From assembly GCA_031292275.1 (NCBI GenBank), contig JARLHL010000074.1:1-64000 (forward strand): a stretch of 64,000 nt of DNA, in the 5' to 3' direction. The stretch's first letter is position 1. Each line of letters opens with the position of its first letter. Origin of the DNA: Desulfocapsaceae bacterium (lineage in GTDB: Bacteria > Desulfobacterota > Desulfobulbia > Desulfobulbales > Desulfocapsaceae). The notes beneath the pieces were generated by a model. The model worked only from the letters and a program-made list of their open reading frames with translations, searched no databases and had not been told where the DNA came from. Of this stretch, positions 26,000 to 56,653 are shown piece by piece. The translations under genes and the position numbers were made by a program.

Positions 26000-26413
26000 T
26001 CAATTTACATTTGCAGCCTTTAATCTCGCCAGGGCCCGCTGAAGTGCAGCCTCGGCTCTCGTCCTGTTTATGGACTCGCTATGCTGAGCAGCCTCGGCAA
26101 GGCGTTTTTCTGCCCGCTCCTTGGCCTTCATCGCCCTACTAACATCAATCTGCTTACCAAATTCAGCACTCTCGACTAAAAAAGTGATCGTATTGTTGGA
26201 AACCTCACAAAAGCCACCACTGATCATGAGATTCTCCCGTTTCTGACCTCGTTCATAAGAGAGAATTCCAATTTTTATTGTCGAGAGAAACGGCGCATGA
26301 TTGGCAAGTACACCGAAATCGCCACCATAACCAGGTGCATTAACGATATCAACATCCTCGCTAACTGCAGCACCATTTGGTGTTACAACTTCCAATCGTA
26401 TCTGTTGTGCCAT
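26000..26413 (-). CDS. atpC: F1F0 ATP synthase subunit epsilon
   Basis: A 137-residue central-stalk subunit that couples and inhibits the F1 motor. The N-terminal beta-sandwich ([20 protein letters not shown], then the [17 protein letters not shown] block) is followed by a helical C-terminal hairpin rich in Ala, Arg and Glu. It is the last gene of the atpF'-F-H-A-G-D-C operon and ends just before a strong terminator. Confidence 0.97.
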
Positions 26414-26442
26414 TGAACTGACCTCGTTTATCGTTTAGGAGA

Positions 26443-27864
<1,422 letters not shown>

Positions 27865-27906
27865 TTACCCCTCCTCAAGAGTCTTAGTTTTTCCGTATGA
27901 TCAAAA

Positions 27907-28776
27907 TTATTTAAGGGCTTCGGCACCGCCAACAATATCCATGAGTTCCGCCGTAATTGAGGCTTGGCGAGCCTTGTTATAAACTATGGTCAGATGGTCA
28001 ACGATCTCTTTACATGCACTAGTTGCATTGTCCATGGCCGTCATACGGGCAGCATGCTCGCTTGCACCCACTTCGAGCATGGCATGATAAATCATGACAT
28101 TCAAGTACAAAGGCTGCAAAACATCCATGATCTCTTCTGTAGAAGGTTCATAAATGTACTCTCCCGAGATTTTTTTTGTGCTCTCACCCTGCCCCTGCAC
28201 CGGTTGTACCGGCAGGAAAGGCTTAACAGCCGGCTTCTGAATCCCTACGGACAAGAACTCTCCGTAAATGATTTCGACCTTGTCGACCTTACCGGCAAGG
28301 AAATTCTCGGAAGCATCCGTTGCAACTTCACGCGCATTAAACATCTGAAAGGAGGACATTATGTCTGTGTATTGCTTTCTGACCTTCCCTGTCTTCTTCA
28401 ACAGCTGAAAGCCTTTCTTCCCAACACAGACCAAGCTTACACCAATACCTTTTGCATCGCATTCTGCTATCTTCCTGAGCGCAGTTTTGATGATATTGGA
28501 GTTGAATGAGCCGCAGAGTCCCCTATCGGAGGTAATCACGACAAGCTCAATATTCTTGATGTCGCGCACCTCCATTAAAGGAAAACTACTCGTATTCGAT
28601 CCGCCGGACAAGTTTGACATAGCCTCATTAAACTTGGAAGTATATGGCCTGAAATTCTCCATTTTCTCCTGGGCGCTACGCAGCCTTGCAGAGGCGACCA
28701 TGTTCATGGCCTTCGTGATCTGGGATGTCTTTTTGACACCCTTGATCTTTGTCTTTACGTCTTTTAAACTGGGCAT
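27907..28776 (-). CDS. atpG: F1F0 ATP synthase subunit gamma
   Basis: The rotating central shaft, 289 residues. It has the N-terminal helix (KDVKTKIKGVKKTSQITKAM), the conserved TSDRGLCGSFNSN strand, and the C-terminal helix ending in RQASITAELMDIVGGAEAL. It is located 19 bp after atpA. Confidence 0.98.
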   Translation of the reverse strand: MPSLKDVKTKIKGVKKTSQITKAMNMVASARLRSAQEKMENFRPYTSKFNEAMSNLSGGSNTSSFPLMEVRDIKNIELVVITSDRGLCGSFNSNIIKTALRKIAECDAKGIGVSLVCVGKKGFQLLKKTGKVRKQYTDIMSSFQMFNAREVATDASENFLAGKVDKVEIIYGEFLSVGIQKPAVKPFLPVQPVQGQGESTKKISGEYIYEPSTEEIMDVLQPLYLNVMIYHAMLEVGASEHAARMTAMDNATSACKEIVDHLTIVYNKARQASITAELMDIVGGAEALK

Positions 28777-28795
28777 AGCGTGGACCTATCTTTGA

Positions 28796-30319
28796 TTAGT
28801 TAAGACCTTTCGTCGCCTTGAATGTAGTACCAAAGCTGGTCAGTGCTTTATTCAGTTTCGCCTTAATCTCATCAGTAAATATCTTCTGCTCTTTCAAATC
28901 ACTAAAGATCGAAGGCTCATTTGACTCGATATAGGAGTAGAGCTCAGTCTCATAACTCGCCAAGGTGTTCACCGGCAGCTTATCAAGATAGCCATTTGTT
29001 CCAGCATACAAAATTGTAACCTGCTTTTCCATGGGCAGCGGCTGGTACTGCGGCTGCTTCAGGATCTCAACCAGGCGTTCACCGCGGGTCAGCTGAGCCT
29101 GGGTAGCGGCATCAAGATCAGATCCGAATGCTGCAAAGGCCGCCAATTCGCGATACTGGGCAAGATCAAGACGCAGAGTTCCTGCAACCTGCTTCATTGC
29201 CTTGACCTGCGCGCTACCTCCAACCCGGGAAACTGACAATCCGACATTGATCGCCGGACGAACACCGGAGAAAAAGAGGTTCGGTTCGAGATATACCTGT
29301 CCGTCGGTAATGGAAATAACATTGGTAGGAATGAAGGCAGATACGTCACCTGCCTGGGTCTCAATAATAGGCAGTGCAGTCAGTGACCCAGCACCCAAGG
29401 CATCGCTGACTTTTGAAGATCTCTCCAGCAGACGTGAGTGGTTGAAGAAGATATCGCCGGGGTAGGCCTCACGTCCAGGCGGACGTCTGAGCAGCAGGGA
29501 AAGCTCACGGTAAGCGACTGCCTGCTTGGACAGATCATCGTAGATAATCAAAGCATGCATGCCGTTGTCGCGGAAATACTCGCCCATGGAACAGCCGGCG
29601 AACGGCGCAATATACTGCATGGGTGCGGGATCGGACGCACAGGCGGCAACAACGGTAGTGTACGACATTGCACCGTGTTTTCTCAGTGCCTCAACAACCA
29701 GGGCCACGGTAGATTTCTTCTGTCCTACAGCAACATAGATACAGTGTACATCGGTATCCTTCTGGGCAATGATGGCATCAACACAGAGTGCAGTCTTGCC
29801 AATCTGACGGTCGCCGATAACCAACTCGCGCTGTCCCCTGCCGACTGGAGTCATGGCATCAACGGCTTTTGCACCTGTGTAGCATGGCTCATGCACACCC
29901 TTACGGGCGATAACGCCTGGCGCAAGGACCTCAATCTTTGAAGACAGCTTGGCGTTCAACGGACCCTGCCCATCAATTGGCTGACCAATACCATCAACCA
30001 CCCGGCCTTCCATCTCAGGCCCGACGGGAACCTCAGCGATCTTTCCGGTACGTTTGACTATATCGCCCTCTTTGATACCCTGTACACTGCCAAGGACGGC
30101 ACAACCGACATTGTCCTCTTCCAGGTTCAGCGCCAGTCCCATTACCCCGCCCGGAAACTCGAGTAGCTCCATGGCCATACAGTTCTGAACGCCATAAATA
30201 CGCGCTATACCGTCACCTACAGATATAACGGTACCGGTCTCATTAAGGTCAATACTTGTCTCATACTCCCCAATCTGATCCTTTATAATCTGACTGATTT
30301 CTTCGGCTTTGATCTGCAT
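28796..30319 (-). CDS. atpA: F1F0 ATP synthase subunit alpha
   Basis: The non-catalytic nucleotide-binding subunit, 507 residues. The P-loop GDRQIGKTA is present. The arginine finger lies in the conserved [13 protein letters not shown] region. Starts one base after the atpH stop, indicating tight coupling. Confidence 0.99.
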
Positions 30320-30865
30320 CTATTCTCTCCCCTTAATGGAATCTTTTAAACCTGCAAGCTGTGTCCTGATGCTGCCATCCAGTACCAGGTCTCCGACTTT
30401 CGCAATAATCCCGCCTATCAACGATGGATCGACACTGGTCGACAGCTCCACTTTCTTGCCTGTTAATTTTTCAAGCGCAGCCCGAATACTGGCCTGCAAT
30501 TCATCACTGAGCTCTACCGCTGAAACCACAGTTCCATGGCTGATATTCTTTTCCGTATCGACCAGTATCTGGAATGCCTCTGCAATTTCGGGGAGTATTT
30601 CAGCACGCTTTTTCTGCACCAGCAGGTTCAGAAAATTACCCATGATCTTATCTACACCGATGGAGTTCACCAACCCAACCATCACCTTCTCCCGCACATC
30701 CAGCGGATATAGAGGATTGGTTAGAGCATCTTCAACTTCAGAGTGAGAAAGGTAAAGCCCAGCCACTCCCTGAAGAGCTTCATTATAGGCTTCGAAATTA
30801 TCATTTTCCTTGCCAACTGCAAAAAGCGCCTTGGCATATCTTCGCGCTAAGATTGTCTGTTTCAC
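30320..30865 (-). CDS. atpH: F1F0 ATP synthase subunit delta
   Basis: The stator cap that joins F1 to the b/b' stalk, 181 residues. It has an N-terminal six-helix domain beginning LARRYAKALFAVG and the C-terminal signature IGGIIAKVGDLVLDGSIRTQ. It overlaps the atpF stop by four bases. Confidence 0.97.
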   Translation of the reverse strand: MKQTILARRYAKALFAVGKENDNFEAYNEALQGVAGLYLSHSEVEDALTNPLYPLDVREKVMVGLVNSIGVDKIMGNFLNLLVQKKRAEILPEIAEAFQILVDTEKNISHGTVVSAVELSDELQASIRAALEKLTGKKVELSTSVDPSLIGGIIAKVGDLVLDGSIRTQLAGLKDSIKGRE

Positions 30866-31584
30866 TGGACGGCCTCTACTTTGATTAGATAATCTTCAAC
30901 GATCTTCACCTGATCCGCCGCGGTTAGATTCTTAATAATCAATTCTTCAGCCATGGCTGCAGCATGATCTGCGATCTCGTTCTTCAGCTTTCTTCTCGCC
31001 TCCATAACCTCTCGCTGGACGGCCAATTCCGCCTGACGCTGAATGTCTGCTGCCGCCTGTTCCGCCTTTTCTATAATTCTGGCCTTCTCGATGGTCGCCT
31101 GAGCTACAGCCTTTTCCACAATAGAATCTATATCTTTCTCGACACTTGCAAGCTTAGCCTCAAAATCCTTATACGTCTTCTCCGCTTCGGCCTTGCGAGC
31201 TTCAAGGTCCTCAATCTCTGTCTTTATTTTGTTTCTTCTGCTGCTCAATCCGGCGGCAATGGGTTTGGCACCGAATTTGATGAGGATGATCATCAAAGCA
31301 ATGAAATTCATGACCCGCAGGCCAAAATCCTTAATTTTTGCAGGAGAGAGGCTGTCATGATGGGCAGCGCCATGCTCACCTGCCGCATGCTCTTCGGTCT
31401 TGACCTCATGGGCAGAAACCATCCCCTCTTGAGCCTGCCCTCCTTCTGCTGTCATATGGGTGGTGTTTGCACCCGCATTTTCAGCCGAATCTGCCGTCGC
31501 CCAGACCGTCCCGCAGGACAGTGCGAACCAAAGTGCTGACGCGACCAGAACCGTACCTCTGGCTATTCGCTTCACCTCTCTCAT
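30862..31584 (-). CDS. atpF: F1F0 ATP synthase subunit b with N-terminal extension
   Basis: The peripheral stalk subunit, 240 residues, which is about 70-80 more than a standard b subunit. Residues 1-28 look like a cleavable signal peptide (GTVLVASALWFALS, possible cleavage after VWA). A His/Glu/Ala-rich linker follows (about 30-80, including EEHAAGEHGAAHH). The usual single membrane helix comes next (about 88-112), then a long charged coiled coil. This keeps the normal N-out, C-in topology but places a polar segment in the periplasm. It lies three bases after atpF'. Confidence 0.95.
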   Translation of the reverse strand: MREVKRIARGTVLVASALWFALSCGTVWATADSAENAGANTTHMTAEGGQAQEGMVSAHEVKTEEHAAGEHGAAHHDSLSPAKIKDFGLRVMNFIALMIILIKFGAKPIAAGLSSRRNKIKTEIEDLEARKAEAEKTYKDFEAKLASVEKDIDSIVEKAVAQATIEKARIIEKAEQAAADIQRQAELAVQREVMEARRKLKNEIADHAAAMAEELIIKNLTAADQVKIVEDYLIKVEAVQ

Positions 31585-31586
31585 CT

Positions 31587-32012
31587 CTAGAGACTCCTTC
31601 GCAGAATTTTACTGGCCATAGCGGTGGCGAATCCGTTGAGATTGCCCTGAAGACCCTGTGCAGCGGTATCGATCTGAGACCTTATATCCGCCATCATTTT
31701 TTCTTTTCCGGCCTCAACCTCGGCCTTTATCGATGCAAGTTTGGCATTCCCTGCAGAAGCCGCCTCGGCCCGTGCAGAATCAAGGGCCGCCTTCGCCCTT
31801 CCAGAAGCCTTGGCCATTTTGTTATCAACCTCTTGCTGCCGAAGACGGGCGTTTTCCTGAAATCTGACGACCTCAGACTGCATCCCCTTCATCTTCTCTG
31901 CTCTGTCGCGCAGAATCTGCCGTACAGGTTTGTACAGGACGCCATTCAGGATAAACATCAAGACTATGATGTTTATCATCTGAAACAGTAAAGTAATATC
32001 CATCGTAATCAT
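31587..32012 (-). CDS. F1F0 ATP synthase subunit b'
   Basis: A 141-residue b-like stalk subunit with an N-terminal membrane helix (LLFQMINIIVLMFILNGVLY) and a long coiled coil. Two different b-type genes in tandem indicate a b/b' heterodimeric stalk, as in photosynthetic bacteria and many Desulfobacterota. It is the first gene of the F1 operon; GGAG precedes the ATG. The b' gene has the normal short N-terminus, unlike its partner. Confidence 0.95.
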   Translation of the reverse strand: MITMDITLLFQMINIIVLMFILNGVLYKPVRQILRDRAEKMKGMQSEVVRFQENARLRQQEVDNKMAKASGRAKAALDSARAEAASAGNAKLASIKAEVEAGKEKMMADIRSQIDTAAQGLQGNLNGFATAMASKILRRSL

Positions 32013-32051
32013 GTCTGCAGTCTCCTGATCAACTTAAGTTTATAAGCTCAA

Positions 32052-32067
32052 CATTCAGAATTGAATG
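32052..32067. promoter_or_regulatory. inverted repeat CATTCA-N4-TGAATG near the F1 operon start site
   Basis: The same half-sites as the two palindromes 43 and 66 bp upstream, but in reversed polarity and separated by four bases. It lies immediately downstream of the proposed -10 element, where a bound protein would block transcription. Confidence 0.4.
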
Positions 32068-32069
32068 AG

Positions 32070-32098
32070 GACATACTCTAAAAATTACAAACTTGCAA
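32070..32098 (-). promoter_or_regulatory. possible promoter of the F1 ATP synthase operon
   Basis: On the minus strand TTGCAA (-35, 32093-32098) is followed after 17 bases by TATGTC (-10, 32070-32075). The -10 is a weak match to the consensus. The position, some 60 bp upstream of the atpF' start, is right, and operator-like repeats lie on both sides. Confidence 0.35.
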
Positions 32099-32109
32099 GC
32101 ATTGACACA

Positions 32110-32123
32110 TGAATGGCCATTCA
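32110..32123. promoter_or_regulatory. perfect palindrome TGAATGGCCATTCA upstream of the F1 operon
   Basis: A 14-bp perfect palindrome centred 104 bp upstream of atpF'. It differs from its neighbour at 32133 by one central base. The two centres are 23 bp apart, about two helical turns, which would place bound dimers on nearly the same DNA face. Confidence 0.6.
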
Positions 32124-32132
32124 CACGAAAAA

Positions 32133-32146
32133 TGAATGACCATTCA
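32133..32146. promoter_or_regulatory. palindrome TGAATGACCATTCA upstream of the F1 operon
   Basis: A 14-bp palindrome (6-base arms, 2-base centre) centred 127 bp upstream of atpF'. The identical 14-mer occurs at 55381-55394, upstream of the F0 operon. Arms of this kind resemble TetR-family operators. The regulator is unknown. Confidence 0.6.
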
Positions 32147-32277
32147 CAACGGGAAAATTTTTACTGTAAATAATCGACCGTGTCAACTGTCTATTTAACA
32201 AAAATCGTTCGGCTTGGAAACAATCAGCATTTGCAGCCTAAAGGCCTTCATTTCTGCCGCACCTCCGTAACTGACAA

Positions 32278-34923
32278 TCAAACGCCTATGATTTCAGAAA
32301 TATGCATCGGAACTGAACGAATAGCCTCTCCTAATTTATCGACCAAATTACCGCCGGCCTGAGCCATGTCAGGTCTCCCGCCGCCCTTGCCGCCCACAAT
32401 GGCCGCCACCCTGCCGACCAGAATCCCGGCACTGATCTTGTCGGTAAGATCCTTGCTTACTATTGCCAGCAGGGCCACCTTGTCCTTGACGACCCCCCCA
32501 AGAACGGCTACACCGGAACCAAGACCATCCCTCACCTTGTCTCCCACATCCCTGAGAGTTTTGGCGCTGTCAAGTGTGATCTCCGCCGCTATCACCTTGA
32601 TGCCTGCAACCGTCATGGCACCGCCAAAGAGATCGTCGAGATCTGAACTGGCCAGTCGGGTGGAGAGTGCGGCAATCTGTTTTTCGAGGGCCCTCTGGTG
32701 CGAGAGCAGACTTCTGATCTTGGCTGGAATCTCCTCTGCTGCAACGGCCAGAATCGCTGCGACCTCCGCTTCCCTGGTGCTCAGGGTCTGCAGGTACTCA
32801 AATGCCGATCGGCCGGTCAGGGCCTCGATCCTTCTTACTCCAGAAGCAATCCCGCTCTCGGAGAGGATCTTAAAGAGACCGATATCACCGGTGGCTCCGA
32901 CATGGGTGCCGCCGCAGAGTTCTTTACTGAAGGCCTCCACGGAAACGACCCGGACCTTTTCTCCGTATTTTTCCCCGAACAGGGCAGTCGCCCCCTCCTT
33001 CACAGCCTCCTCCTTGGCAAGAACCCTGGTCTCGACGGGGATATTCTCCCGGATTCGGGAGTTGACCAGTCGTTCGATGGCCGAGATCTCCTCTTGACTG
33101 AGAGGAGAAAAATGTGTGAAATCGAAGCGTAAGCGCTGAGGTCCTACAAGTGAGCCCGCCTGCTTAATATGATCGCCCAGAATCCGTTTCATCGCCGCCT
33201 GCAACAAATGCGTGGAGGTGTGGTTTGCAGCAGTCTCTGCTCGGGTTATCTCTTCCACCTGCAGGTTTATCCAGGAGCCAGTGATCAGTGTTCCTCGTTC
33301 TACCCTTATCTCATGAAATACCAGCGGCCCCTCGGCGAAGGTAGCAAGAACAGAGGCCTGCCCGCCCTGCCAACTCACAAGCCCCACATCACCCATCTGA
33401 CCACCTGACACCGCATAGAAGGGTGTTAACGGAGTGAACAATCTTCCGGAATCCTTCTCGGATAACTCCTTGCACTCATTACCATATTCATCAAGAAGCG
33501 TATCGACGACGGTCTCAGCCGTAAGTCCCTGATAACCGGTAAACTCGGTCTTCTTGTCCGATTCCAGAAGCCGTTTGACCCCCTCATCACGCAATCTGAT
33601 TCCCTCTCCCTTCTGCGAGGCCCTCGACTGGGCTCGCTGCCTCTCCATAGCCAGGTTGAAACCGGCCTCATCAAAACCGACAGCGCGCTCAAGAGAAATA
33701 TCCCGAACAATATCCACAGGGAATCCGTAAGTATCATAGAGTTTAAAAATAAAATCCCCGGAGATCACCTTCTCGTCATCCTTCAGCATCCTGGTGATCT
33801 CCTGATCGAGGATCATCAACCCGTTTTCCAGGGTCTCCCGAAACCGCTCCTCCTCATTATCGACAACCTTCTTCAGGAGTTCCCTCGCTGTGCTCAGATG
33901 AGGATAGGCATGCTCCATGGCGTCGACCACGGTGGCGGTAACAGTATCTATAAATGCGTGGTCAAGCCCCAGATTCTTCCCATAACGGACCGCACGCCGC
34001 ATAATGCGCCGCAGGACATATCCCCTCCCTTCGTTTGCCGGCAGAACACCGTCGGCAACAAGAAAGGCTGTAGCCCTGGCATGGTCGGCAATCACTCGCA
34101 TTGCCACGTTGTCATCAGGGTTTTTTCCATAGGGCCGGCGGCTGAGCCCTTCCAGACAGGAGATGATCGGAGCGAAGAGATCAGAGTCATAATTATTCGA
34201 TTTTCCCTGTAAAACTGCAGCAACACGCTCCAGACCCATCCCCGTATCTATGCTGGGCCGGGGCAGGCGGGTCATGGTCCCATCCTGGGCCCGGTTAAAC
34301 TGCATAAAAACCAGATTCCAAAGTTCAAGAAAACGGTCGCAATCACAACCGAGGGCACAATCAGGGCGGCCACAGCCGGCATTCACCCCCTGATCGATAT
34401 GGATCTCCGAGCAGGGGCCGCAGGGACCGGTGTCACCCATGGCCCAGAAATTATCTTTTTCGCCCATGCGGATGATACGCCCGTCAAGCAGACCGTCGAC
34501 CTTTTTCCAGAGGTCAAAGGCCTCATCGTCATCCTCGTATATGGTCACCCAGAGTTTTTCTTTGGGCAAGTGCAACTCTTCGGTCAGGAATTTCCAGGCA
34601 TGGGCGATGGCCTTCTCCTTGAAATAGTCCCCAAAAGAAAAATTGCCAAGCATCTCGAAAAAGGTATGATGCCTGGCCGTATACCCAACATTTTCCAGAT
34701 CATTATGCTTGCCCCCGGCCCGCACGCAGCGCTGGCTGGTGGTGGCCCGGACGTAATCACGGTGATCCTCGCCCATAAATACGGTCTTGAACTGCACCAT
34801 TCCGGCATTGGTGAACAGGAGTGTCGGATCGTCGGCCGGAACCAGAGAGGAGCTATCGACAATGGTATGACCATTTTTTTGAAAATATTCGAGGAATTTA
34901 GCACGTAATTCATTGCCAGTCAT
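32278..34923 (-). CDS. alaS: alanyl-tRNA synthetase
   Basis: Charges tRNA-Ala. The 881-residue protein begins with ELRAKFLEYFQKNGHTIVDS and the class II catalytic core (TLLFTNAGMVQFK). The editing domain carries the zinc-binding motifs NHTSTHLL and CGGTHV, and the C-terminal DHHA1-type domain ends in GGKGGGRPDMAQAGG. Complete and normal. Upstream of it, on the same strand, is a cysteine hydrolase gene. Confidence 0.99.
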   Translation of the reverse strand: MTGNELRAKFLEYFQKNGHTIVDSSSLVPADDPTLLFTNAGMVQFKTVFMGEDHRDYVRATTSQRCVRAGGKHNDLENVGYTARHHTFFEMLGNFSFGDYFKEKAIAHAWKFLTEELHLPKEKLWVTIYEDDDEAFDLWKKVDGLLDGRIIRMGEKDNFWAMGDTGPCGPCSEIHIDQGVNAGCGRPDCALGCDCDRFLELWNLVFMQFNRAQDGTMTRLPRPSIDTGMGLERVAAVLQGKSNNYDSDLFAPIISCLEGLSRRPYGKNPDDNVAMRVIADHARATAFLVADGVLPANEGRGYVLRRIMRRAVRYGKNLGLDHAFIDTVTATVVDAMEHAYPHLSTARELLKKVVDNEEERFRETLENGLMILDQEITRMLKDDEKVISGDFIFKLYDTYGFPVDIVRDISLERAVGFDEAGFNLAMERQRAQSRASQKGEGIRLRDEGVKRLLESDKKTEFTGYQGLTAETVVDTLLDEYGNECKELSEKDSGRLFTPLTPFYAVSGGQMGDVGLVSWQGGQASVLATFAEGPLVFHEIRVERGTLITGSWINLQVEEITRAETAANHTSTHLLQAAMKRILGDHIKQAGSLVGPQRLRFDFTHFSPLSQEEISAIERLVNSRIRENIPVETRVLAKEEAVKEGATALFGEKYGEKVRVVSVEAFSKELCGGTHVGATGDIGLFKILSESGIASGVRRIEALTGRSAFEYLQTLSTREAEVAAILAVAAEEIPAKIRSLLSHQRALEKQIAALSTRLASSDLDDLFGGAMTVAGIKVIAAEITLDSAKTLRDVGDKVRDGLGSGVAVLGGVVKDKVALLAIVSKDLTDKISAGILVGRVAAIVGGKGGGRPDMAQAGGNLVDKLGEAIRSVPMHISEIIGV

Positions 34924-55023: not shown

Positions 55024-55276
55024 TCAATCCTCTATCGTCTTTTCTGTCGTTTTTGTCTTTAACACGCCAGAGGATTTGAAGCAACGTCTTAAAGCCTGCC
55101 GCAATTCCGAAAGCAAGCCCGATAAAAGTGAACCAAGGAGCCGTACGACCGTTAAATACCTTCTGATCCAGGACAATCCCTCCCCCCAGACCCACAAAGA
55201 TACAGGCAACAAATGTAAAACCTACATGTCCATAATTTGCAAGCAGGTGGATCATCTCGTTCTTTAACTCAGACAT
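55013..55276 (-). CDS. AtpZ/AtpI-family small membrane protein
   Basis: An 87-residue protein with two membrane helices and the AtpZ-type pattern: GHVGFTFVACIFVGLGGGIV, then WFTFIGLAFGIAAGFKTLLQ. AtpZ with AtpI forms a Mg/Ca transporter or assembly factor in some bacteria. The ATG at 55276 is preceded by AGGTGG; GTG codons three positions upstream are less likely. First gene of the F0 operon atpZ-I-B-E. Confidence 0.85.
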   Translation of the reverse strand: MSELKNEMIHLLANYGHVGFTFVACIFVGLGGGIVLDQKVFNGRTAPWFTFIGLAFGIAAGFKTLLQILWRVKDKNDRKDDRGLSDK

Positions 55277-55323
55277 TATCACCACCTATTCTCTTTACGG
55301 GCACTCCCCTGATAATAGGCCTT

Positions 55324-55352
55324 TTGGTAGCACGGCCATTGCTCAAAGTCAA
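55324..55352 (-). promoter_or_regulatory. possible promoter of the F0 ATP synthase operon
   Basis: On the minus strand TTGACT (55347-55352), a 17-base spacer and TACCAA (55324-55329), about 48 bp upstream of the atpZ start, between hemL and atpZ. The -35 is good, the -10 moderate. Confidence 0.45.
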
Positions 55353-55360
55353 CGATTTTT

Positions 55361-56653
55361 TTAAACTTCCCGTAGTTTTTTGAATGACCATTCAGTCATT
55401 TTCACCATTCTTTCAAGGTCATCTCCGGTATGAGCCGCTGAAATAAAAGCAACTTCAAACTGGGATGGAGCAAGATAAATACCCTGGCTCAGCATCTGCC
55501 GATAATGCCTGGCATAACGATCCGTATCCGACTTCATTGCCGAAGTAAAATCCGTTACCGGCTCAGGCGTAAAAAAAGCGGTGAACAGCGAGCCTGCTCT
55601 GTTGATCTGTACAGCAATACCGATCCTCTCAGCAATATTGCCAAATTGCTCAACAAGCCAGGCAGTCTTTTTTTCAAGATCCGGATAAAAATCCTTCTGC
55701 TGTAATAATCGCAGAACCGCAACCCCGGCCGCCATGGCCAGAGGATTCCCCGACAGGGTGCCGGCCTGATAGACAGGCCCCTCTGGGGCGATACAATCCA
55801 TGATCTCCGTCTTGCCGCCATAGGCCCCTACCGGCAATCCTCCGCCAATAATTTTTCCCAGGCAGGTAAGATCAGGCATGATACCGAAAAACTCCTGCGC
55901 GCCTCCGTAGGCCAGCCTGAATCCGGTAATAACCTCATCAAATATCAGAATAATGCCCAGTTCTCCAGTCAGAGATCTCAGCGTCTCCAGAAAACCCGCC
56001 GCCGGGGGGACACAACCCATATTCCCCGCTACCGGCTCAACAATGACGCAGGCAATATCGAGAGTAGGATCTCTTAGCGTTTTTTCCAGTATTTCAACAT
56101 TGTTATATGGAATCGAAATCGTATTTTTAACAATATCATCAGGGACCCCCGGACTTCCCGGTATACCCAGTGTTATCACTCCTGAACCTGCCTTGACCAG
56201 AAAAGAATCGGCATGCCCATGATAGCACCCGTCAAACTTAACAACGATCTTTCTGCCTGTGTATCCGCGGGCCAGGCGGACAGCACTCATGGTAGCCTCG
56301 GTGCCGGAATTGACGAACCGAACCTTTTCGATGGAAGGGACGGCCTCAACAACCAGAGCTGCCAGTTCAATCTCTAAAGGAGTTGGCGCCCCGAAACTGG
56401 TACCATCACCAGCGGCCCTGCATATTTCTTGAACGACTGCAGGATGGGCATGGCCGAGGATCATAGGCCCCCATGAACCGACGAAGTCGAGAAACTCATT
56501 GCCGTCGACATCGGTCAGAAATGCTCCTCTGGCACTCTTAATAAAAAGGGGATCACAGCCTACGGCCCGACAGGCCCTGACAGGACTGTTTACCCCGCCT
56601 GGTATCAGTTCCCTGGCCTCGCGAAACATCATTGCAGACGTCTTGTTTTCCAT
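55361..56653 (-). CDS. hemL: glutamate-1-semialdehyde 2,1-aminomutase
   Basis: A PLP enzyme of C5-pathway tetrapyrrole synthesis, 430 residues, producing 5-aminolevulinate. It begins with [14 protein letters not shown] and contains [20 protein letters not shown]. The PLP lysine is in [19 protein letters not shown], followed by [15 protein letters not shown]. Its last codons contain the palindrome found upstream of both ATP synthase operons. No other heme gene is adjacent. Confidence 0.98.
55381..55394. promoter_or_regulatory. palindrome TGAATGACCATTCA upstream of the F0 operon
   Basis: Identical to the 14-mer at 32133-32146. It lies inside the last codons of hemL (encoding M-T-E-W-S-F), 29 bp upstream of the proposed -35 and about 112 bp upstream of the atpZ start, a distance close to that in the F1 operon (127 bp). 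It may be a shared operator, or a coincidence. Confidence 0.5.

Follow-up and report, generated by a model that had tools for sequence, protein, structure and literature searches.

Conserved palindromes at ATP synthase and dsr promoters of Desulfobulbales as likely operators of a FadR-type TetR repressor

To our knowledge, little has been established about how the level of the respiratory chain is set in sulfate reducers outside Desulfovibrio, and we are aware of only rare reports of ATP synthase genes with a dedicated repressor. The predicted regulon of Rex, a protein of a different family from TetR, includes ATP synthase, and its motif is TTGTGAANNNNTTCACAA. A search of the window (the whole 64,000-nucleotide stretch of a Desulfocapsaceae genome analyzed here) gave seven matches to this motif at three mismatches, none of which lay in 32000–32300 or 55200–55450. 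As described in excerpts of a study of Desulfovibrio, Rex is a repressor that couples sat, a gene of sulfate reduction, to the redox state (PMC7531388). In this it is like the regulator proposed below, but it senses NADH/NAD+. Excerpts of another study present HcpR of the delta-proteobacteria, with Desulfotalea psychrophila among the genomes analyzed, as having a predicted regulon of sulfate reduction and energy genes; unlike TetR, it belongs to the CRP/FNR family, its Desulfotalea motif is atTTGAccnnggTCAAat, and “ATP synthase” does not occur in the text of that paper (PMC545781). When only the outer bases of the HcpR motif were used, no match with ≤ 2 mismatches was found near the F1 and F0 promoters of the window. 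A TetR-type repressor with a 16-bp palindromic operator is described, in the excerpted text, for the sulP clusters of Desulfobacteraceae; it shares with our system the repressor type, the palindromic operator, and the sulfate-reducing host, a likeness by description and not by operator sequence, but it controls sulfate uptake and adjoins its target (PMC11887813). Finally, excerpts on Clostridium autoethanogenum describe the TetR-family protein CAETHG_0459. It is likewise associated with energy genes, an ATPase group among them, but is an activator whose promoter motif consists of (A/T)G repeats; the text does not mention “FadR” (PMC6873888). A literature search of open-licence papers, in which long result lists were covered in part, gave no description that we recognized of the present motif or of a FadR-like regulator of ATP synthase. 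A TetR repressor with its operators is a well-known kind of system, and it is the set of targets that appears to be new.

The closest described system is FadR (YsiA) of Bacillus subtilis and B. halodurans. Bacillus FadR targets beta-oxidation genes, and its box is the 18-bp TGAATGAMTANTCATTCA, with the half-sites TGAATG...CATTCA. The TetR protein considered here is like these proteins in its TetR_C_4 family, in its identity of 33–34% over ~185 residues, and in having them as its closest fold. It also has a nearly identical sequence in what we take to be the DNA-reading region of the alignment with B. halodurans FadR, and the half-site TGAATG/CATTCA of its putative operator is shared with the Bacillus operator. 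It differs in its putative targets: in place of beta-oxidation genes, these are ATP synthase and DsrMKJOP, joined in some relatives by DsrAB and complex I. Its main predicted operator also differs, having 14 bp with a 2-bp center instead of the 18-bp box.

Palindromes, promoter, and leader of the F1 operon

The gap between alaS and the F1 operon measures 265 bp and contains two near-identical palindromes and a third, related repeat. The features of this region are listed below.

32278–34923, minus strand: alaS (named by inspection)
32181–32186, minus strand: inferred F1 −35 element TTGACA, which reads TTGACA in 28 of the 28 genomes with an F1 site
32158–32163, minus strand: inferred F1 −10 element TAAAAA with a 17-bp spacer; a second promoter scan gave the neighboring register AAAAAT with a spacer of 18
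32133–32146, minus strand: predicted operator O1, TGAATGACCATTCA in the window and TGAATGGTCATTCA when read on the minus strand; roughly +6 to +19, counted from the inferred F1 start
32110–32123, minus strand: predicted operator O2, TGAATGGCCATTCA; about +29 to +42 of the F1 transcript from the inferred start
32052–32067, minus strand: probable leader hairpin CATTCA-ATTC-TGAATG in the F1 mRNA, based on covariation; it ends 39 nt before the start codon
31587–32012, minus strand: P0001, which opens the F1 operon and encodes an ATP synthase subunit of the b' type (named by inspection)
26000–31584, minus strand: remainder of the F1 operon, with the b, delta, alpha, gamma, beta, and epsilon subunits (translations, named by inspection)

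An earlier note on this DNA had described the two palindromes, with centers 23 bp apart, and a third repeat with the same half-sites around a 4-base center; all three are present as described, the last as CATTCAGAATTGAATG at 32052–32067. In the whole genome (4,138,390 bases), exact TGAATGNNCATTCA occurs at four places, each matched on both strands, whereas 0.23 are expected from the base composition of the window, and the reversed TGAATGNNCATTCA used as a control had no match. Two of these places are at the F1 promoter, one is before the F0 operon within the window, and one is before RsbRD_N-dsrMKJOP. When ≤ 2 mismatches were allowed, TGAATGNNCATTCA was not enriched in the window (5 found vs. 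4.73 expected), so only the exact or nearly exact palindrome is informative. This lack of enrichment of degenerate matches is what would be expected of chance occurrences or a dispersed repeat, but with the excess of exact copies and with the site at the same promoters in relatives, we regard that explanation as scarcely credible. The two F1 palindromes are confirmed as real and as more than chance, and they are very likely regulator-binding sites of the F1 operon, as had been suggested.

The earlier note had placed the palindromes upstream of the likely −35. On their other side, however, lies a conserved sigma-70-like promoter, in which TTGACA is followed by a spacer of N17 in 27 of 28 genomes and of N18 in one. 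The −10 element is 17–23 nt upstream of the operator in all 28 genomes that have an F1 site with ≤ 1 mismatch, the present genome included, and the order is the same in each. Because the conserved TTGACA-N17-TAAAAA is upstream of the palindromes, these appear to be downstream of the start, which we place by sequence near 32151, and not upstream of the −35. The promoter noted before was probably TTGCAA-N17-TATGTC (~32098–32070), which is weaker than the conserved one, and its assignment is probably wrong. By eye, it is kept in the genus but only loosely in two further genomes (G003 and G020), and we demoted it as the F1 promoter; it may still serve as a second F1 promoter. We also looked for a terminator-like site between alaS and the F1 operon (32013–32277). 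None was found there, and read-through from alaS is therefore possible.

The third repeat had been taken for another operator, and cooperative or looping repression by the whole set had been proposed. Within the genus, its half-sites do equal those of the operators. In 16 leaders from the family, which were picked from 30 F1 loci after the pattern had been seen by eye (the other 14 were left out), a stem starting with CATTC or CATCC is found ~40 nt before the start codon. The stem covaries in these 16 leaders: pair 4 is T-A, T-G, or C-G, and pair 6 is A-T, C-G, or G-C. The forms in relatives include CATTCC/GGAATG, CATCCC/GGGATG, and CATTCGG/CCGGATG, all with the pairing kept, and in CATTCC-TTCG-GGAATG the resemblance to the operator is gone. 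Since the repeat keeps its pairing but loses the half-site in relatives, it is probably not a third operator but an RNA hairpin formed in the leader of the F1 mRNA. A strict stem finder, anchored on CAT, detected the stem in 14 of the 16 leaders, as against 1.0% of 8000 mononucleotide shuffles. Counting against the hairpin, the z-scores of six folded leaders were only −0.4 to −1.6; it was absent from the minimum-energy fold of the present genome's leader and present in those of the other five. A search of 31500–32700 against Rfam gave no match at E up to 1. Furthermore, two tandem F1 sites occur only in G000 (the present genome), G001, G002, and G003, at spacings that vary (23, 23, 28, and 24 bp, respectively), and the other genomes have one or none. 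Both observations speak against a single set of three operators acting by cooperation or looping, which we now consider very improbable.

Putative target genes and the TetR regulator

The fourth exact site, on contig C89, precedes an RsbRD_N open frame, 24 bp away from its first ATG, and this frame is followed by the genes for DsrM, DsrK, DsrO, and DsrP (Dsr names were given by inspection and gene order, with Pfam supplying the domain types). With exact sites at F1, F0, and dsrMKJOP, one operator-like site is common to the two parts of the ATP synthase and to a membrane complex of sulfite reduction. To determine the extent of conservation, we searched loci of 2–4 kb from 30 genomes for each operon, scoring cut contigs as misses. 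Matches with ≤ 1 mismatch were found only at the promoters, namely, in 24/30 genomes for F1, 26/30 for F0, and 24/30 for dsrMKJOP. With the remaining loci added, as in the comparison below, none occurred in 1348 background windows, each of 200 bp and placed deeper in these loci. The −10 element of dsr is 15–23 nt upstream of the operator in 25 of 26 genomes. Among 29 readable dsrAB loci, 13 have a site with ≤ 1 mismatch and another 13 have one with 2–3 mismatches, the latter counted without a chance test; in G009, G018, and G035, all of which are without TetR, the best dsrAB match has 4 mismatches. In the present genome, a dsrA gene (G000:C13:76087-77298) is situated at the end of the window's contig, ~12 kb past the window, and its promoter is cut by the contig end. 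Exact sites precede nuoA in five of the 38 genomes (G006, G008, G024, G027, and G031) and in the locus L312, and others in relatives precede a c3-type cytochrome gene, a fumarate-reductase-like gene, and dsrA (named by inspection). A few exact sites in relatives have no clear target (e.g., L176 and L306).

Fatty-acid degradation genes were found at none of the four exact sites of the present genome. Of its 13 one-mismatch places, 11 were read; beside the TetR promoter, they showed no convincing target, and several were inside genes. The place at C106:12533 is ~250 bp before a heterodisulfide-reductase-like operon. Two side observations were made. At the loci L183, L289, and L310 of relatives, exact 14-bp or 18-bp sites are upstream of exported carbonic-anhydrase-like genes (named by inspection). 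In addition, distant matches to an ATP synthase a subunit (34% identity) and to b' were seen at G000:C58:74408-75644, outside the window, which suggests a second ATP synthase-like locus.

The genome has a single clear copy of the TetR gene, which is outside the window (G000:C35:97794-98387). Its product matches Pfam TetR_N (8.3e-14) and the “YsiA-like” TetR_C_4 (1.6e-20), both above the cut-off, and its best PDB matches by sequence are the Bacillus FadR proteins 5gp9, 5gpa, 1vi0, and 3whb. We also compared the fold model of a 95%-identical ortholog (L187, pLDDT 89) with known structures (Foldseek, VIA-align). The best match was B. subtilis FadR (Z 24.2, rmsd 1.7, 185 aligned), 3whb and 5gp9 were among the first matches (Z 24.2 and 23.4), and 3whc, a stearoyl-CoA complex, was also among the matches. 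By Pfam, sequence, and predicted fold, the protein is of the FadR (YsiA) type. Orthologs with at least 57% identity are present in 33 of the 38 genomes, this one included, and close orthologs are found in records named Desulfocapsa, Desulfoprunum, Desulfofustis, Desulfopila, and Desulfobulbaceae, names that point to Desulfobulbales as the order of the relatives.

In many genomes, the TetR gene carries the site at its own promoter. A site with ≤ 1 mismatch was found there in 21 of the 33 genomes with TetR, and the −10 element is 7–9 nt upstream of the operator in 16 of these 21; in the present genome, the site has one mismatch and is at −63. Among 80 named loci, some of them from the same genomes as the 38-genome set, 59 have a site within 200 bp and 21 have none, while the control gave one match with one mismatch in 260,819 positions. 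The consensus of the 21 sites, AATGAATGAATGGCCATTCATT, contains the 14-bp and an 18-bp arrangement together. The exact 18-bp TGAATGANNNNTCATTCA has nine matches in the 38 genomes, six of them at the TetR promoter, and none in the present genome, where only the 14-bp form occurs. Four of the six (G012, G013, G017, and G023) also fit the Bacillus FadR box.

The absence of TetR mostly goes with the absence of the sites. A site with ≤ 1 mismatch was found at F1 in 27 of 32 genomes with TetR vs. 1 of 5 without it (Fisher p 0.008), at F0 in 29 of 33 vs. 1 of 4 (p 0.010), and at dsrMKJOP in 26 of 30 vs. 0 of 3 (p 0.006), where the p values take the 38 genomes as independent and ignore kinship. G002 is among the 33 genomes counted for F0 but was left out of the F0 p value, as its miss reflects a cut contig and its hemL end, with the site, is on another contig. 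In a sample of 116 genomes, all from one order, exact TGAATGRYCATTCA was found in 80, and the reversed control had three matches in two genomes. In family f12 of this sample, TetR is present in 22 of 32 genomes, and the exact site was found in 7 of these 22 and in none of the 10 genomes without TetR (p 0.05). Loss of TetR alone does not account for the missing sites, given that 15 of the 22 f12 genomes with TetR have no exact site.

These exceptions bear on the possibility that another transcription factor binds the sites and that the FadR-like TetR is merely one of its targets. Besides the many f12 genomes that keep TetR while few have exact sites, this explanation has in its favor that sites occur where TetR was not found, in G042 and G073 (exact sites) and in G004, the one positive without TetR in the comparison above, whose exact sites come from a fragmented genome that is 91% complete. 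The joint absence of TetR and sites, the six TetR promoters with an 18-bp site of the Bacillus FadR type, and the near identity of the presumed DNA-reading region all argue against it, and we consider it unlikely. The palindromes are probably operators of the FadR (YsiA)-type TetR repressor, which would control an energy-metabolism regulon. What the sequences show are the sites and their conservation, their placement relative to the predicted promoters, the family of the regulator, and its joint occurrence with the sites; the binding, the repression, and the ligand are what we infer here.

Predicted F0 operator within hemL

The F0 operon has its own promoter in the window, and the predicted operator there overlaps the preceding gene.

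55361–56653, minus strand: hemL, glutamate-1-semialdehyde aminomutase (named by inspection), with the F0 operator in its last codons
55381–55394, minus strand: predicted F0 operator TGAATGGTCATTCA, at roughly −77 to −64 relative to the F0 promoter and within the 3' end of hemL
55347–55352, minus strand: inferred F0 −35 element TTGACT
55324–55329, minus strand: inferred F0 −10 element TACCAA
53465–55285, minus strand: F0 operon, with AtpZ-like, AtpI, a subunit, and c subunit genes (Pfam ATPase_gene1, ATP-synt_I, ATP-synt_A, and ATP-synt_C)

The C-terminus of HemL is mostly TEWSFK in the f1 family. In 23 of the 24 f1 genomes with a readable end, counted without selection by site pattern and with the end of G002 read on its second contig, the first two codons of this tail are ACT GAA and the last two are TCA TTC, with TGG between them in 22 of the 23. 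The sole f1 exception with a different tail is G009, which is without TetR; in other families, G030 (without TetR) and G033 (with TetR) also have different tails. At 12 of 12 other hemL positions where the residue is the same in 22 of 22 sequences (loci picked by site pattern), two or more codons are used. The invariance of the tail codons, while 12 other conserved positions vary, indicates that the F0 site is maintained at the DNA level, and a protein-level cause was rejected on this ground, since synonymous codons are frozen at the site and varied elsewhere in hemL. In G025, G028, G032, and G035, a search next to the F0 operon gave no hemL end, and no F0 site with ≤ 1 mismatch was present; the first three of these genomes carry TetR despite the absent site.

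The F0 operator is 64–66 nt upstream of the −10 element in 26 of 30 genomes, with its center at about −70. A position near −70 is that of a class-I activator; being upstream of the −35, the site is not where a simple repressor would bind, and this counts against simple repression at F0. An activating or dual regulator was thus considered, in which case the F1 start might be at the downstream promoter and the palindromes would be upstream of its −35. The fixed distance at F0 and the retention of TTGCAA/TATGTC within the genus fit this possibility, as does a precedent: in the excerpted text of PMC7382501, the long acyl-CoA sensor FasR, a TetR-family protein from Mycobacterium tuberculosis, is presented as an activator. 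In the other direction, TTGCAA/TATGTC is not kept by eye beyond the nearest genera, the FadR proteins of Thermus and of Sulfolobus are described as repressors in excerpts of the literature (papers excerpted here include PMC5343134, PMC5597230, and PMC6449355), and in most genomes the F1, dsr, and tetR operators coincide with the inferred start or closely follow it, which would be a polymerase-blocking position of a repressor. We therefore consider an activating or dual role rather unlikely and retain repression as the preferred explanation.

Proposed mechanism and its implications

Under repression by the FadR-like TetR, a dimer occupying the DNA just past the F1 promoter would block transcription of the F1 ATP synthase genes. 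The same TetR would control its own gene and RsbRD_N-dsrMKJOP, together with dsrAB and nuo in some relatives, and would also use the conserved F0 site, which is centered near −70, with an effect of either sign. Long-chain acyl-CoA would probably release the repressor, a signal suggested by the homology to Bacillus FadR, and upon release the ATP synthase and the sulfite-reduction electron chain would rise together. More tentatively, and with somewhat less than even confidence, we propose that in Desulfobulbales a FadR-type acyl-CoA sensor was diverted from fatty-acid breakdown and became a global switch of anaerobic respiration. At low acyl-CoA, it would repress ATP synthase and DsrMKJOP, as well as DsrAB and complex I in some lineages, and the F0 operator in the last hemL codons would dictate the tail of an unrelated enzyme. 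The hemL operator would then be a clean case of a DNA site that constrains the end of a protein.

The proposed regulon supplies a candidate regulator with its predicted operator, as well as a class of ligands that can be tested. If the proposal is true, acyl-CoA derived from lipids or substrates would be linked to energy conservation across a widespread group, whose members include sulfur disproportionators such as Desulfocapsa.
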